From Aliirhizobium wenxiniae (GTDB lineage: Bacteria; Pseudomonadota; Alphaproteobacteria; Rhizobiales; Rhizobiaceae), in contig NZ_JACHEG010000005.1 in the NCBI RefSeq assembly GCF_014201355.1, positions 186,001-250,000 on the forward strand: DNA of 64,000 nt. The letters run 5' to 3'. Numbering within the stretch: the stretch's first letter is position 1; every line of letters begins with the position of its first letter. Shown piece by piece: positions 31,484-41,716 of this stretch. Below the pieces are notes generated by a model, which did not search any database, was not told where the DNA came from, and was given only the letters and a program-made list of their open reading frames with translations. The translations under genes were made by a program, and so were the position numbers.

Positions 31484-32461
<978 letters not shown>

Positions 32462-32529: not shown

Positions 32530-33723
32530 ATGAATATCCATGAATATCAGGCCAAGGCTCTCTTGAAGGGTTACGGCGCACCGGTTGCCGAAGGCGTCGC
32601 GATCCTCAAGGTCGAAGAAGCCGAAGCTGCTGCCAAGCAGCTCCCAGGCCCGCTCTACGTCGTCAAGAGCCAGATCCATGCCGGCGGTCGCGGCAAGGGC
32701 AAGTTCAAGGAACTTGGACCCGATGCCAAGGGCGGCGTTCGCCTGGCCAAGTCGATCGAGGAAGTCGTGGCTCACGCCAAGGACATGCTCGGCAACACGC
32801 TGGTAACCGCGCAGACCGGCGAAGCCGGCAAGCAGGTCAACCGCCTCTACATCGAAGACGGTGCAGACATCGACCGCGAACTTTACTGCTCGCTGCTGGT
32901 CGACCGTTCCGTTGGTCAGGTTGCTTTCGTCGTTTCGACCGAAGGCGGCATGGACATCGAAGCCGTTGCCCACGACACGCCTGAGAAGATCCACACGATC
33001 GCCATCGACCCGGAAACCGGTGTGACGGCTGACGACGTTGCCAAGATCTCCAAGGCTCTGGAACTCTCGGGCGCAGCTGCCGAAGACGCAAAGTCGCTGT
33101 TCCCGGCGCTCTATAAGGCGTTCGGCGAAAAGGACATGGCTCTTCTCGAAGTCAACCCGCTGATCGTCATGAAGGACGGCCATCTGCGCGTTCTCGACGC
33201 CAAGATGTCCTTCGACGGCAACGCGCTGTTCCGTCACGACGACGTCAAGGCGCTGCGCGACGAGACCGAGGAAGACTCCAAGGAAATCGAAGCTTCCAAG
33301 TGGGACCTCGCTTACGTTGCCCTCGACGGTAACATTGGCTGCATGGTCAACGGTGCCGGTCTCGCCATGGCGACGATGGACATCATCAAGCTGTACGGCA
33401 AAGAGCCGGCTAACTTCTGCGACGTCGGCGGTGGCGCCGGCAAGGAGAAGGTGGCTGCAGCCTTCAAGATCATCACTGCCGACCCGAAGGTCGAAGGTAT
33501 TCTGGTCAACATCTTCGGCGGCATCATGCGTTGTGACGTCATCGCCGAAGGCGTTGTCGCTGCCGTGCAGGAAGTTGGCCTGAAGGTTCCGCTCGTCGTT
33601 CGCCTCGAAGGCACCAATGTCGAGCTCGGCAAGAAGATCCTCAACGAATCCGGCCTTGCGATCACGGCTGCTGACGATCTGGACGATGCCGCCAAGAAGA
33701 TCGTTGCGGCGATCAAAGCCTAA
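32530..33723 (+). CDS. sucC: Succinyl-CoA synthetase beta subunit
   Basis: This encodes the 397-residue ADP-forming beta subunit of succinyl-CoA synthetase, which makes ATP from succinyl-CoA. The ATP-grasp start [37 protein letters not shown], the metal site EVNPLIV and the C-terminal ligase part with [19 protein letters not shown] and [15 protein letters not shown] are all intact. It follows mdh after a hairpin and precedes sucD by 17 bp. Confidence 0.98.
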
Positions 33724-33740: not shown

Positions 33741-34646
33741 ATGTCTATTCTCGTCAATAAAGACACCAAGATCCTCGTTCAGGGCCTGACCGGCAAGACC
33801 GGCACGTTCCACACCGAACAGGCGCTTGCTTACTACGGCACCAAGATGGTCGGCGGTATCCACCCGAAGAAGGGTGGCGAAACCTGGTCGTCGGGCGTCG
33901 ACGGCACGGCGCTGCCGATCTTTGCTTCGGTTGCCGAAGCCAAGGAACGCACCGGTGCAGATGCGACCGTGATCTACGTTCCGCCGGCAGGTGCTGCCGA
34001 CGCAATCATCGAAGCGATCGAAGCCGAAGTCCCGTTCATCACCTGCATCACCGAGGGTATCCCGGTCATGGACATGGTGCGCGTCAAGGCCAAGCTCGAC
34101 AAGTCGAAGTCGCGTCTTCTCGGCCCGAACTGCCCGGGCGTTCTGACGCCGGAAGAATGCAAGATCGGCATCATGCCGGGCTCGATCTTCCGCAAGGGTT
34201 CGGTCGGTATCGTTTCGCGCTCCGGCACGCTGACCTACGAAGCCGTTTTCCAGACGTCCAACGAAGGCCTCGGCCAGACGACGGCTGTCGGCATCGGCGG
34301 CGACCCGGTCAAGGGCACCGAATTCATCGACATGCTGGAAATGTTCCTCGCGGACGAAGCCACCCAGTCGATCATCATGATCGGCGAAATCGGCGGTTCG
34401 GCTGAAGAAGATGCAGCCCAGTTCCTGATCGACGAAGCCAAGAAGGGCCGCAAGAAGCCGATGGCAGGCTTCATCGCCGGCCGTACGGCTCCGAAGGGCC
34501 GCACCATGGGTCACGCTGGCGCTGTCGTTTCCGGCGGCAAGGGCGATGCGGAATCCAAGATCGCAGCCATGGAAGCAGCAGGCATCAAGGTTTCGCCTTC
34601 GCCGGCACGCCTCGGCAAGACGCTGGTTGAAGTCCTCAAGGGCTAA
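33741..34646 (+). CDS. sucD: Succinyl-CoA synthetase alpha subunit
   Basis: This encodes the 301-residue alpha subunit, which binds CoA and carries the phospho-histidine. The CoA site is in [19 protein letters not shown], the active-site His is in [18 protein letters not shown], and [12 protein letters not shown] and [12 protein letters not shown] are conserved. TGAGGA lies before the ATG. It is separated from sucA by a 210-nt gap that is unusually rich in hairpins. Confidence 0.98.
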
Positions 34647-34856
34647 ACCACATTAAGGTCACTCGCCGCCGATAGACAGGCGGCGATGGACCTCTAGGTT
34701 TCAGACCCGCAGGCAGATGCTTTTTTGCCTGTGGGCGAACCGTCACAAGACGGCGCCGCAAAGCGGCAATACGAGACGACACACAGAGAATGCGGAACCG
34801 TCGAGGTCTTCGGTTCCGACCACGTGAGGAGGCGGGCGCGGCGCCCGCAATAGGCC
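34647..34856 (+). promoter_or_regulatory. Structured sucA leader, five hairpins
   Basis: Five stem-loops follow each other in 186 nt: TCGCCGCC/GGCGGCGA (34663-34686); a 10-bp stem CCCGCAGGCA/TGCCTGTGGG with one G-U (34706-34735); GCCGC/GCGGC (34755-34767); CGGAACCG/CGGTTCCG, perfect 8 bp (34793-34818); and GCGGGC/GCCCGC (34832-34848). None ends in a U-run. GACCTC (34689-34694) could also pair with GAGGTC (34803-34808), giving an alternative fold. No open frame with a good start is present. This looks like a cis-acting leader or processing region controlling sucA. Confidence 0.6.
34826..34856 (+). promoter_or_regulatory. sucA ribosome binding site interrupted by hairpin
   Basis: The only strong Shine-Dalgarno, GAGGAGG (34826-34832), is 24 nt from the ATG at 34857, too far for normal use. 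The hairpin GCGGGC/GCCCGC (34832-34848) fills the gap; folded, it leaves 8 nt between stem and ATG. An in-frame TAG at 34851-34853 rules out a nearer upstream start, so the start codon is fixed. Confidence 0.6.
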
Positions 34857-37856
34857 ATGTCCCGGCAAGAAGCCAACGAGCAGTTTCTGATCACTTCGTT
34901 CCTAGATGGCGCGAACGCCGTCTATATCGAACAACTTTATGCCAATTACGAAGCCGACCCGAATTCGGTTTCCGAAGAATGGCAGGCCTTTTTCAAGGCC
35001 CTGGCCGACAGCCCCGAAGACGTGAAGAAGGCAGCGCAGGGCGCTTCCTGGAAGCGTTCGAACTGGCCGATCGCAGCCGGTGGCGACCTTGTTTCCGCTC
35101 TCGACGGCAACTGGCCGGTAGTGGAAAAGGCAATCGAAACCAAGGTCAAGGCAAAGGCTGAAGCCGCTGCTGCTGCCAAGGGTGCTGTCGTCAACGAAGC
35201 CGACGTTCATCAGGCGAGCCGCGACAGCGTGCGCGCCATCATGATGATCCGCGCCTACCGCATGCGCGGCCACCTGCATGCCAAGCTCGATCCGCTCGGC
35301 ATCGCAAGCCCGGTCGAGGATTATAACGAACTGTCGCCGAAGTCCTATGGCTTCGAAGAGAGCGATTACGATCGCAAGATCTTCATCGACAACGTTCTGG
35401 GCATGGAATACGCGACCGTTCGCGAGATGATCGCGATCCTCGAGCGCACCTATTGCTCGACGATCGGCGTCGAATTCATGCATATGTCGAGCCCGGAAGA
35501 AAAGGCCTGGATCCAGGAACGGATCGAAGGTCCGGACAAGGGCGTAGCCTTCACCCCGGAAGGCAAGAAGGCCATCCTTTCCAAGCTGATTGAAGGCGAA
35601 GGCTACGAGCAGTTCCTCGACGTCAAGTTCAAGGGCACCAAGCGTTTCGGCCTCGATGGCGGCGAAGCACTGATCCCGGCGCTCGAACAGATCATCAAGC
35701 GCGGCGGCCAGCTGGGTCTTGAAGAAGTCATCGTCGGCATGGCTCACCGCGGCCGTCTGAACGTTCTGACCAACGTCATGGGCAAGCCGCACCGCGCCGT
35801 GTTCCACGAGTTCAAGGGCGGTTCGTTCAAGCCTGACGAAGTCGAAGGTTCGGGTGACGTGAAGTACCATCTCGGTGCCTCTTCCGACCGCGAATTCGAC
35901 GGCAACAAGGTTCACCTGTCGCTGACCGCCAACCCGTCCCACCTCGAGATCGTCAACCCGGTCGTCATGGGCAAGGCCCGCGCCAAGCAGGACATGCTGG
36001 CCAAGGTCTGGGAAAAGGACAACATCATCCCGCTCTCCGAGCGCTCCAAGGTTCTGCCGCTGCTCCTGCACGGCGATGCGGCCTTTGCGGGCCAGGGCGT
36101 GGTTGCCGAAATCCTCGGCCTTTCCGGTCTGCGCGGTCACCGCGTTGCCGGCACGATGCACGTCATCATCAACAACCAGATCGGCTTCACCACCAATCCT
36201 GGCTTCTCGCGTTCGTCGCCTTATCCGTCGGACGTTGCCAAGATGATCGAAGCGCCGATCTTCCACGTCAACGGCGACGATCCGGAAGCGGTTACCTATG
36301 CCGCCAAGGTTGCGACCGAATACCGGATGAAGTTCCACAAGCCGGTCGTGCTCGACATGTTCTGCTACCGTCGCTTCGGCCATAACGAAGGCGACGAGCC
36401 GGCGTTCACCCAGCCGAAGATGTACAAGGTCATCCGCGCCCACAAGGCCGTGGCCGAGATCTATGCCGAACGTCTGGTCGGCGAAGGCGTGATCACCGAC
36501 GCCGAATTCGACAAGATGAAGGCCGACTGGCGCGCGCATCTCGACGCCGAGTTCGAAGCCGGCCAGGCCTACAAGCCGAACAAGGCCGACTGGCTGGACG
36601 GCCAGTGGTCTGGTCTGCGTTCTGCCGACGATGCCGACGAGCAGCGTCGCGGCAAGACCTCGATGCCGATGAAGAGCCTCAAGGAAATCGGTCGCAAGCT
36701 GTCGACCATTCCGGAAGGTTTCAACGCGCACCGCACGATCAAGCGCTTCATGGAAAACCGTGCGCAGATGGTCGAGACCGGCGAAGGCCTCGACTGGGCA
36801 ATGGCGGAAGCATTCGCTTTCGGTTCGCTCTGCGTAGAAGGCACGAAGATCCGTCTTTCCGGCCAGGATTGCGAACGCGGCACCTTCTCGCAGCGTCACT
36901 CGGTTCTCTACGATCAGGACACCGAAGAGCGCTACATCCCGCTGTCGAACCTGCAGCCGGGCCAGGGCAAGTATGAAGTGATCAACTCCATGCTGTCGGA
37001 AGAAGCCGTTCTCGGTTTCGAATACGGCTACTCGCTGGCCCGTCCGAACGCGCTGACCCTCTGGGAAGCCCAGTTCGGCGACTTCGCCAACGGTGCGCAG
37101 GTCGTGTTCGACCAGTTCATCTCGTCGGGCGAACGCAAGTGGCTGCGCATGTCCGGTCTCGTCTGCCTTCTGCCGCATGGTTATGAAGGTCAGGGTCCGG
37201 AACATTCGTCGGCTCGCTTGGAACGCTTCCTGCAGCTCTGCGCGGAAGACAACATGCAGGTCGCTAACGTCACGACGCCGGCTAACTACTTCCACATCCT
37301 GCGCCGTCAGGTGAAGCGCGACTTCCGCAAGCCGCTGATCCTGATGACGCCGAAGTCCTTGCTGCGCCACAAGCGTGCAACGTCTTCGCTGGCCGAACTG
37401 GCGGGCGAAAGCTCGTTCCACCGCCTGCTGTGGGACGATGCCGAAGTCATCAAGGACGGCCCGATCAAGCTGCAGAAGGATGCCAAGATCCGTCGCGTCG
37501 TGATGTGCTCGGGCAAGGTCTATTACGACCTTCTCGAAGAGCGCGAAAAGCGCGGCATCGACGACGTCTACCTGCTGCGTATCGAGCAGCTCTACCCGTT
37601 CCCGGCCAAGGCTCTGATCAACGAGCTGTCGCGCTTCAAGAACGCGGAAATGGTCTGGTGCCAGGAAGAGCCGAAGAACATGGGCGCCTGGTCGTTCATC
37701 GACCCTTACCTGGAATGGGTCCTGGCGCATATCGATGCCAAGTATCAGCGCGTCCGCTACACGGGCCGCCCGGCAGCAGCATCGCCTGCAACGGGCCTGA
37801 TGTCGAAGCATCTGGCACAGCTGGAAGCCTTCCTCGAAGACGCTCTCGGCGGCTGA
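34857..37856 (+). CDS. sucA: 2-Oxoglutarate dehydrogenase E1
   Basis: This encodes the 999-residue thiamine-diphosphate-dependent E1 of the 2-oxoglutarate dehydrogenase complex. The N-terminal E2-contact segment FLDGANAVYIEQLYANYEAD, the HRGRLNVLTNVMGKPH block, the LTANPSHLEIVNPVVMG region, the GDEPAFTQPKMYKVI stretch and the second-half HGYEGQGPEHSSARLERFLQ are typical. Length is somewhat above the E. coli enzyme because of alphaproteobacterial insertions. The ATG at 34857 is the first possible start after an in-frame TAG. Its Shine-Dalgarno is separated by a hairpin and a long structured gap lies upstream, so translation may be regulated. Confidence 0.98.
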   Translation: MSRQEANEQFLITSFLDGANAVYIEQLYANYEADPNSVSEEWQAFFKALADSPEDVKKAAQGASWKRSNWPIAAGGDLVSALDGNWPVVEKAIETKVKAKAEAAAAAKGAVVNEADVHQASRDSVRAIMMIRAYRMRGHLHAKLDPLGIASPVEDYNELSPKSYGFEESDYDRKIFIDNVLGMEYATVREMIAILERTYCSTIGVEFMHMSSPEEKAWIQERIEGPDKGVAFTPEGKKAILSKLIEGEGYEQFLDVKFKGTKRFGLDGGEALIPALEQIIKRGGQLGLEEVIVGMAHRGRLNVLTNVMGKPHRAVFHEFKGGSFKPDEVEGSGDVKYHLGASSDREFDGNKVHLSLTANPSHLEIVNPVVMGKARAKQDMLAKVWEKDNIIPLSERSKVLPLLLHGDAAFAGQGVVAEILGLSGLRGHRVAGTMHVIINNQIGFTTNPGFSRSSPYPSDVAKMIEAPIFHVNGDDPEAVTYAAKVATEYRMKFHKPVVLDMFCYRRFGHNEGDEPAFTQPKMYKVIRAHKAVAEIYAERLVGEGVITDAEFDKMKADWRAHLDAEFEAGQAYKPNKADWLDGQWSGLRSADDADEQRRGKTSMPMKSLKEIGRKLSTIPEGFNAHRTIKRFMENRAQMVETGEGLDWAMAEAFAFGSLCVEGTKIRLSGQDCERGTFSQRHSVLYDQDTEERYIPLSNLQPGQGKYEVINSMLSEEAVLGFEYGYSLARPNALTLWEAQFGDFANGAQVVFDQFISSGERKWLRMSGLVCLLPHGYEGQGPEHSSARLERFLQLCAEDNMQVANVTTPANYFHILRRQVKRDFRKPLILMTPKSLLRHKRATSSLAELAGESSFHRLLWDDAEVIKDGPIKLQKDAKIRRVVMCSGKVYYDLLEEREKRGIDDVYLLRIEQLYPFPAKALINELSRFKNAEMVWCQEEPKNMGAWSFIDPYLEWVLAHIDAKYQRVRYTGRPAAASPATGLMSKHLAQLEAFLEDALGG

Positions 37857-37916: not shown

Positions 37917-39149
<1,233 letters not shown>

Positions 39150-40309: not shown

Positions 40310-41716
40310 ATGGCTTATGATGTCGTCGTTATCGGAAGCGGTCCCGGTGGTTATGTCTGCGCAATCAAGGCAGCGCAGCTCGGCCTCAAGGTCGCTGTCG
40401 TCGAAAAGCGCGCCACCTATGGCGGCACCTGCCTGAATGTCGGCTGCATTCCGTCCAAGGCTCTGCTGCACGCGTCGGAAATGTTCCATCAGGTCGCCCA
40501 CGGCGTCGATACGCTCGGCGTTGAAGTTGCCGCTCCGACGCTCAACCTTACCAAGATGATGGCGCACAAGGATGCGACCATCAAGTCGAACACCGATGGC
40601 GTTGCCTTCCTGTTCAAGAAGAACAAGATCGACGGCTTTATCGGCACTGGCAAGATCGTTGCCGCTGGCAAGGTTTCCGTCACCGGCGAAGACGGCAAGG
40701 TGCAGGAACTGGAGACGAAGAACATCGTCATCGCCACCGGTTCTGACGTTGCCGGCATTCCGGGCGTCAATGTCGAGATCGACGAGAAGGTCATCGTCTC
40801 CTCGACCGGTGCAATCTCGCTGGAAAAAGTTCCGCAGAACATGATCGTCGTGGGCGGCGGTGTCATCGGTCTGGAACTCGGCTCGGTCTGGATGCGCCTC
40901 GGCGCCAAGGTCACTGTCATCGAATATCTCGACAAGCTGCTCGGTGCGATGGATGCCGACGTGTCCAAGCAGTTCCAGCGGATGATCGCCAAGCAGGGCA
41001 TGGATATCCGCACCGAAGCCAAGGTCACCGCCGTCGAAAAGACCGCGACCGGCGCCAAGGTTACCTATGAGCCGGTCAAGGGTGGTGATGCCGTCACCGT
41101 CGAAGCCGACGTGGTGCTGATCTCCACCGGCCGCAAGCCCTATACCGAAGGTCTCGGGCTGGAAGCTGCAGGCGTCGCACTCGACAATCGCGGTCGCGTC
41201 GAAATCGACCATGGCTTCAAGACCAATGTTGCCGGCATCTATGCGATCGGCGACGTGGTGAAGGGCCCGATGCTGGCGCACAAGGCGGAAGACGAAGGCG
41301 TTGCTCTCGCCGAAATCCTTTCCGGCCAGCATGGTCACGTGAACTATGACGTCATTCCTGGCGTCGTCTACACCCAGCCGGAAGTCGCTTCGGTCGGCAA
41401 GACCGAAGAGGAACTGAAGGCTGCAGGCGTCGCCTACAAGGTCGGCAAGTTCCCGTTCACCGCCAACGGCCGCGCCCGCGCCATGCTGGCGACCGACGGT
41501 TTCGTCAAGATCCTCGCCGACAAGGAAACCGACCGGGTTCTCGGCGGTCACATCGTCGGCTTCGGCGCCGGCGAGATGATCCACGAGATCACGGTGCTGA
41601 TGGAATTCTCCGGTTCGTCGGAAGATCTCGGCCGTACCTGCCACGCGCATCCGACCATGTCGGAAGCCGTCAAGGAAGCAGCCCTGTCGACTTTCGCCAA
41701 GCCGATCCATATGTAA
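40310..41716 (+). CDS. lpdA: Dihydrolipoamide dehydrogenase E3
   Basis: This encodes a 468-residue flavoprotein that reoxidises the lipoyl groups of E2 with NAD+. The FAD site is VVVIGSGPGGYVCAIKAAQL, the redox-active pair is GGTCLNVGCIPSK, the NAD site is VVGGGVIGLELGSVW, and the dimer-interface His-Glu is in CHAHPTMSEAVKEAAL. Because it ends the mdh-sucCDAB series it is the E3 of the 2-oxoglutarate complex; other copies may exist elsewhere in the genome. AGGA precedes the ATG and a strong terminator follows. Confidence 0.97.
   Translation: MAYDVVVIGSGPGGYVCAIKAAQLGLKVAVVEKRATYGGTCLNVGCIPSKALLHASEMFHQVAHGVDTLGVEVAAPTLNLTKMMAHKDATIKSNTDGVAFLFKKNKIDGFIGTGKIVAAGKVSVTGEDGKVQELETKNIVIATGSDVAGIPGVNVEIDEKVIVSSTGAISLEKVPQNMIVVGGGVIGLELGSVWMRLGAKVTVIEYLDKLLGAMDADVSKQFQRMIAKQGMDIRTEAKVTAVEKTATGAKVTYEPVKGGDAVTVEADVVLISTGRKPYTEGLGLEAAGVALDNRGRVEIDHGFKTNVAGIYAIGDVVKGPMLAHKAEDEGVALAEILSGQHGHVNYDVIPGVVYTQPEVASVGKTEEELKAAGVAYKVGKFPFTANGRARAMLATDGFVKILADKETDRVLGGHIVGFGAGEMIHEITVLMEFSGSSEDLGRTCHAHPTMSEAVKEAALSTFAKPIHM

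Follow-up and report, generated by a model that had tools for sequence, protein, structure and literature searches.

The 3′ end of the gap between sucD and sucA is very likely an accommodated, or split, ribosome-binding site: a strong Shine-Dalgarno (SD) sequence lies far from the sucA start codon, and a conserved hairpin, which we infer to form in the cell and to be required for translation, stands between the two. Such a site, bridged by a hairpin and shared across the family before a bacterial TCA-cycle gene, best explains the sequences compared here; it appears to be new, while the kind itself is known from phage T4. The gap (positions 34647–34856, 210 nt) lies in a window of 64,000 nt, by which we mean the whole stretch of DNA analysed. 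The part that is conserved across family leaders is its last 30 nt, comprising, on the forward strand, the SD sequence AGGAGG (34827–34832), a 7-bp hairpin GCGGGCG-CGG-CGCCCGC (34832–34848) and an unpaired 8-nt spacer (34849–34856) that leads directly to the sucA ATG. The SD core GGAG (34828–34831) ends 25 nt before the ATG, and the last G of AGGAGG is also the first pair of the hairpin, whose predicted pairing probability in this genome is 0.97. The general pattern in the family is AGGAG(G/A), a hairpin directly after it, mostly 7–11 nt, and then ATG, with the GGAG columns 97–99% conserved in 139 leaders. Core forms include GCGGGCGCGGCGCCCGC, GCGGACGATCAAGTCCGC and GCGGGTTTAGAACCCGC; those of Mesorhizobium, Bartonella and Phyllobacterium contain CGGAGC or CGGAAC with GCTCCG, CTCCG or GTTCCG.

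The flanking genes were read from the list of open reading frames. We take them to be mdh (31499–32461), sucC (32530–33723), the upstream gene sucD (33741–34646, forward strand), sucA (34857–37856, forward strand), sucB (37917–39149) and lpd (40310–41716), the names being assigned by eye from the sequence and the usual operon order. The element serves sucA, which encodes the 999-residue E1 component of 2-oxoglutarate dehydrogenase and resembles the SucA of Rhizobium wenxiniae (L092 in our locus numbering; 99% identity in the best segment). The text available for one study names an mdh-sucCDAB operon in Rhizobiales (PMC4052901). Simple scans of positions 34400–35000 revealed no terminator-like or sigma-70-like site.

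An in-frame TAG lies 6 nt before the sucA ATG, so no in-frame upstream start is possible in this genome. A leader peptide controlling sucA could be read from an ATG at 34790, within an AATGCGG common to part of the genus, and 37 of 55 genus leaders do have an ATGCG in their final 110 nt. However, its frame relative to sucA is evenly spread (11, 14 and 12 leaders) and the other 18 leaders lack it; with the frame not conserved, we consider a leader peptide extremely improbable and rejected it.

To compare relatives, gaps were collected by protein search in the genus and the family and cut at the sucD stop and the sucA ATG. Fifteen loci were set aside as repeats of the same genome or because they contained N, and 31 of the remaining 170 were dropped because their last 38 nt were identical to another row, giving an alignment of 139 distinct leaders (A1). 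Two named Rhizobiaceae-like loci (L095 and L143) are outside this alignment and are included in the family distribution count below. The original prediction had proposed covariation in relatives as a check, and the core hairpin does covary. Its cells are paired in 88.5% of cases, compared to 71.0 ± 1.0% in shuffled alignments, with 161 two-sided cells (61 ± 15 shuffled) and a covariation score of 0.362 (0.139 shuffled); controls with slid partners pair in 31–50%.

Such cell counts tally relatives repeatedly, and we therefore also reconstructed pair states by parsimony, using a tree of 131 leaders based on pieces of SucD and SucA. About 33 two-sided pair-to-pair changes were found over the seven pairs, compared to 0–6 when partners were slid by 2 or 3 columns. 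Seventeen of these fall at a single pair, at which pairing is retained in 32 of 35 changes. Pairs were also lost along the tree, in 41 pair-to-broken changes over the seven pairs (slid controls, 17–48), with the innermost pair accounting for 18. Stems of at least 6 bp occur in the spacer of 113 out of 132 leaders, where 7.2 would be expected from mononucleotide shuffles.

The geometry was analyzed in the 132 of the 139 leaders that have both GGAG and a stem. The end of GGAG is 23–34 nt from the AUG in all of them and 24–27 nt in 113, the hairpin is 14–18 nt long in 125, and the unpaired remainder between GGAG and ATG, with the hairpin looped out, is 8–10 nt in 118. For comparison, mdh and sucD in the same operon carry GAGG 10 nt from their ATG, near the folded sucA spacing. 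Because the total distance (standard deviation 1.72) varies little more than the unpaired remainder (1.60), it is the average values and the presence of the stem that carry the spacing argument, rather than strict compensation; the means and the correlation of 0.51 between hairpin length and total distance suggest some length compensation, which the variance does not.

The SD itself is strong. Assuming the usual 16S tail sequence, the predicted anti-SD duplex of the distal SD has a median energy of −10.3 kcal/mol in the 132 leaders, compared to −3.0 for the best AUG-proximal site. In outgroup sucA leaders (n = 28) the tendency is reversed, with −2.6 at the distal and −4.3 at the proximal site. 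Of the 132 hairpin leaders, 15 also carry an SD-like site near the AUG with an energy of −5 kcal/mol or lower.

A conserved core that consists of a hairpin between SD and AUG points to a role in ribosome positioning. With a strong SD at such a distance, placement of the AUG in the P site would be impossible on a straight spacer. A stable hairpin starting 0–1 nt past the SD core would take up mostly 14–18 nt, and since 8–10 nt would remain after folding, the 30S subunit could bind the SD by base pairing and still find the AUG at normal spacing. The features of a split ribosome-binding site thus occur together, namely a distant strong SD, an intervening hairpin that is predicted and covarying, and an unpaired remainder in the functional range. 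The predicted hairpin probability is at least 0.8 in 103 of the 132 leaders. Predicted accessibility in a −100 to +60 context speaks against the simplest view, as it is only moderate, both for the SD (median unpaired 0.38; at least 0.5 in 43 of the 132) and for the AUG (median 0.41), and the SD value ranges from 0.79 in this genome to 0.015 in the Mesorhizobium leader L098. Seven Mesorhizobium-like leaders (L098, L217, L221, L222, L225, L227 and L259) have, by eye, CTC or CTCC a few nucleotides upstream of the SD, which could possibly pair with GGAG as a second, SD-hiding layer.

The sucA hairpin may position the AUG in the same way as the RNA structures of T4 genes 38 and 25. The accessible text describes these as shortening the SD–AUG distance from 22 to 5 nt and from 27 to 11 nt, respectively, and translation is lowered when they are destabilised; the gene 25 structure, at the gene 26–25 intercistronic site, is also found in close T-even phages (PMC3014915). 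The likeness concerns the mechanism only, a distant SD and an intervening structure that cuts the distance, and homology in sequence is not expected. By this analogy, the hairpin is probably needed for sucA translation. The phage cases are, in the text available, proven by mutation and probing, whereas the sucA case is a predicted one in a chromosomal TCA-cycle gene across a bacterial family. In Escherichia coli thrS the hairpin lies upstream of the SD and is part of the threonyl-tRNA synthetase operator, whereas the sucA hairpin sits between SD and AUG and its loops are unconserved. The split ribosome-binding site of thrS resembles that of sucA in that the ribosome accommodates a hairpin within its binding site (PMC3936740).

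The distribution of the element was examined by requiring a stem of 5 bp or more after an SD. This combination is present in 149 of 161 family leaders, representing 76 of 83 genera, and in none of 33 outgroup sucA leaders (28 and a further 5) from other families and orders. The outgroup leaders were aligned from SucA residue 1, with uncertain starts left aside, and 80 loci were assigned to family or outgroup by names and SucA identity before counting. The 83 genera are drawn from 109; many of the other 26 had the weakest SucA matches and one had no SucA match, and one genome of the genus gave no sucA match. Applied to 758 ordinary ORF starts, this loose test is also passed by 32, which means that chance may account for a few of the 149 positives; L368 is a doubtful one. 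Several of the 12 leaders that fail (such as L089, L198, L220 and L361) have an SD and a visible imperfect or short stem. From the named loci (Rhizobium, Shinella, Ensifer, Phyllobacterium, Mesorhizobium and Bartonella), the family, labelled f1 in our data, would correspond to Rhizobiaceae in the wide sense.

A model of the core (R1) scores sucA at 41.3 bits in its own genome, with the next site at 21.1 bits among the 150 of 1509 first-look candidates that were scored. In held-out loci it located the start of sucA in 14 of 20 new family members (E up to 0.72; 13 at E ≤ 0.058), with no match at L095 or L143 and none at nine outgroup sucA starts. An order-wide search at E up to 0.1 matched 15 of 121 genomes; its strict filters and limit of 50 scored candidates per genome result in low recall. 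Four of the matched genomes bear the family label. The other 11 matches in this low-recall search are in other families, and none of the eight frames read there is SucA-like, those of L283, L284 and L286 being unread. One of these matches (L285, genome G491, another family of the order) is an AGGAGG-hairpin preceding an ORF that starts MKITGIEITHHRLPL and looks enolase-superfamily-like by eye; this match may be chance.

Within 793 kb of its own genome, sucA is the only site with GGAG, a stem of at least 6 bp, 6–11 nt, ATG and an ORF of at least 150 residues. Four other sites pass with GAGG as the core; they are no commoner than with non-SD control words (1–6 sites each) and so look like chance. 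A degenerate pattern search gave 25 matches, compared to 15 for the reversed control. General use of SD-hairpin-AUG arrangements in this genome is unsupported, since only sucA stands out in the 793 kb. Together, the own-genome scan, the absence from the outgroup and the order-wide matches without SucA-like frames indicate that, as far as tested, the element is specific to sucA and to the family.

A few lineages depart from the general arrangement. Four leaders (L240, L243, L269 and L095) keep the hairpin and have a second SD, AAGGTGA, between hairpin and ATG; the distal GGAG is lost in L243, L269 and L095 and still present in L240. Four others (L219, L252, L268 and L356) have neither the hairpin nor the distal GGAG. 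In these few lineages, distal SD and hairpin tend to go together.

The gap as a whole is strongly folded. Its minimum free energy (MFE) of −98.7 kcal/mol compares with −71.9 ± 4.6 for dinucleotide shuffles (z = −5.83), none of 200 shuffles folding as well. The MFE structure contains hairpins at 34656–34693 (stem 1), 34706–34735 (stem 2, 12 bp), 34740–34753 and 34755–34767 (stems 3 and 4), 34793–34818 (stem 5) and 34832–34848 (the core hairpin, stem 6), all on the forward strand. The strong structure with five stem-loops that the original prediction had proposed is thus borne out, as the MFE fold shows at least those five. The cis-acting structure is real; however, the conserved core is the SD–AUG hairpin rather than a five-stem leader, and the original prediction was silent on the last stem parting SD from AUG.

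The upstream stems were compared in a MAFFT alignment of 53 genus sequences (A2), made without L007, L010 and L176, which contain N. Stem 1, the hairpin after the sucD stop, covaries where present (90.0% of cells paired, 78.1% shuffled) and is missing in part of the genus, each pair being gapped in 15–18 of the 53 rows. Stem 2 is a covarying hairpin at the genus level, with 80.4% of cells paired (70.1% shuffled) and 85 two-sided cells (32.7 shuffled). The small stems 3 and 4 (34740–34767) are seen in the MFE fold and are absent from the RNAalifold consensus of the genus, which predicts stems 2 and 6 alone. Hairpins similar in appearance to stem 5, directly upstream of the SD, recur in relatives, but no covariation is detected for it in the MAFFT alignment (69.2% paired, 68.1% shuffled; score 0.155, 0.154 shuffled). 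The upstream part of the leader has a median z of −3.90 in 33 genus members and −3.81 in 92 other leaders; for 71 control gaps from the genome analysed here, the median is −1.21. From one genus to another the upstream sequence changes, and stems 1 and 2 are supported within the genus only. It appears that the upstream stems are secondary, an insulation, standby or mRNA-processing region rather than a conserved control element.

One way to account for these stems is that they are mRNA-processing or stability hairpins, marking the 3′ end of sucCD and a new 5′ end of sucAB and so setting the levels of the two halves of the operon. The covarying hairpin that follows sucD in most genus rows, the covariation of stem 2 and folding stronger than that of control gaps in the sampled genera are consistent with it, but stem 1 is gapped in about a third of the genus rows and the SD-hairpin-AUG core is left unexplained. 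We consider a processing role possible, though short of probable; it is compatible with a split ribosome-binding site and could operate alongside it.

Comparison with Rfam gave no match in the window at gathering thresholds, including the sucA, sucA-II and sucC motifs; at E values up to 5, the sole match was a miRNA family (E = 4.1), far under its own threshold. The leader thus reaches no Rfam family, and since it contains a conserved, covarying cis-acting structure, its earlier description as a candidate cis-acting RNA that may be new still holds. The gap is also single-copy in its genome (G000, 6.43 Mb), where the other four matches are 19–23 nt long with E ≥ 0.0968, which rules out a plain repeat. 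A related suggestion is that the leader was built from intergenic repeat elements, with the folds as by-products. Some relatives have extra stretches in mid-leader (L007, L010, L011, L035 and L187); in L098, from Mesorhizobium, part of the leader is repetitive and palindrome-like. However, the absence of a second copy and of an Rfam match argues against such an origin, which we regard as very improbable; for the core hairpin, it is refuted by the covariation and by its standing out before sucA only. The SD-hairpin-AUG core is untouched by the extra stretches, and that of L007 and L010 is a CCCTCACCCTAACCCTC...GGGGAGAGGGG hairpin.

The hairpin, alone or with upstream stems, might instead be the operator of a regulated switch, bound by a protein, sRNA or metabolite, such that unfolding or capping it lowers sucA translation; its spacing role would then be the output stage of a control device. 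The base of the stem, CGG/CCG (34833–34835 and 34845–34847; columns 44–46 and 65–67 of A1), is more than 90% conserved at each position in the 139 leaders, with the upper stem varying. This invariance exceeds the needs of a mere spacer and is in line with an operator, as is the strong folding of the upstream leader in the sampled family. In contrast, the loop sequences are not conserved among leaders, and variable loops fit a spacer better than a sequence-specific operator. An alternative pairing proposed earlier, between 34689–34694 and 34803–34808, is perfect in this genome (GACCTC/GAGGTC), yet all six pairs occur in only 5 of 53 genus leaders. A pairing of TGACG at the sucD stop with CGTCA before the SD, seen in some MFE folds, was rejected because it lacks covariation. 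Thus, neither of the two candidate pairings tested is conserved with covariation, and by eye (aligned 48-nt windows and printed leaders), no sequence upstream of the SD is shared outside the genus that would resemble an aptamer core. A metabolite switch is unsupported here: the loops are not conserved, and none of the alternative folds tested covaries.

Precedents for control at this gene exist in other proteobacteria. The sucA (RF01070), sucA-II (RF01758) and sucC (RF01759) motifs are structured leaders of this gene or its neighbours and are listed in Burkholderiales, Pseudomonadales and Gammaproteobacteria (PMC4603805, PMC2864571); one of these accounts refers to the sucA motif as a probable riboswitch (PMC4603805). 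The rhizobial leader differs in matching none of these families. In Enterobacteriaceae, the sRNA GlnZ controls sucA post-transcriptionally through a long sucA leader, a point of likeness (PMC9731577). However, GlnZ pairs in trans far upstream of the start region, and the accessible part of that report describes no SD–AUG hairpin. On balance, a regulated switch seems doubtful. The split ribosome-binding site could itself act as a fold-to-activate element, where SD and AUG cooperate only with the hairpin closed and its opening by a protein, helicase, sRNA or temperature stops translation. We consider this extension unlikely; if true, it would invert the familiar logic of thermometers and riboswitches that hide the SD, and throughout the family it might set flux where carbon and nitrogen metabolism branch, the long leader serving as sensor or standby region.

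To our knowledge, two phage genes are the known cases of hairpin-bridged SD–AUG spacing. A selectively maintained version before one central metabolic gene in some 75 genera would offer natural material on the tolerance of the 30S subunit for a helix in the mRNA path. It also raises the questions of why evolution retains a hairpin rather than deleting 17 nt, and of control at the 2-oxoglutarate branch point, which is important in nitrogen-fixing symbiosis. Predictors of ribosome-binding sites that scan only 5–15 nt upstream may miscall sucA as SD-less here. No rhizobial sucA SD–AUG hairpin was found in the accessible portions of the literature, which is weak evidence of absence as most subscription papers fall outside that scope.

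Two further observations were made in this region of the genome. A 6-bp stem of about 30 nt lies upstream of the probable argG start MALPKDVKKVVLAYSGGLDT (named by eye; contig C5, ∼185862), just outside the start of the window, and may be due to chance. The sequence CCACATAA (34647–34660) immediately follows the sucD stop. Most of the 53 genus leaders conserve it, among them many that have no stem 1, and it is possibly a processing site or a promoter element.
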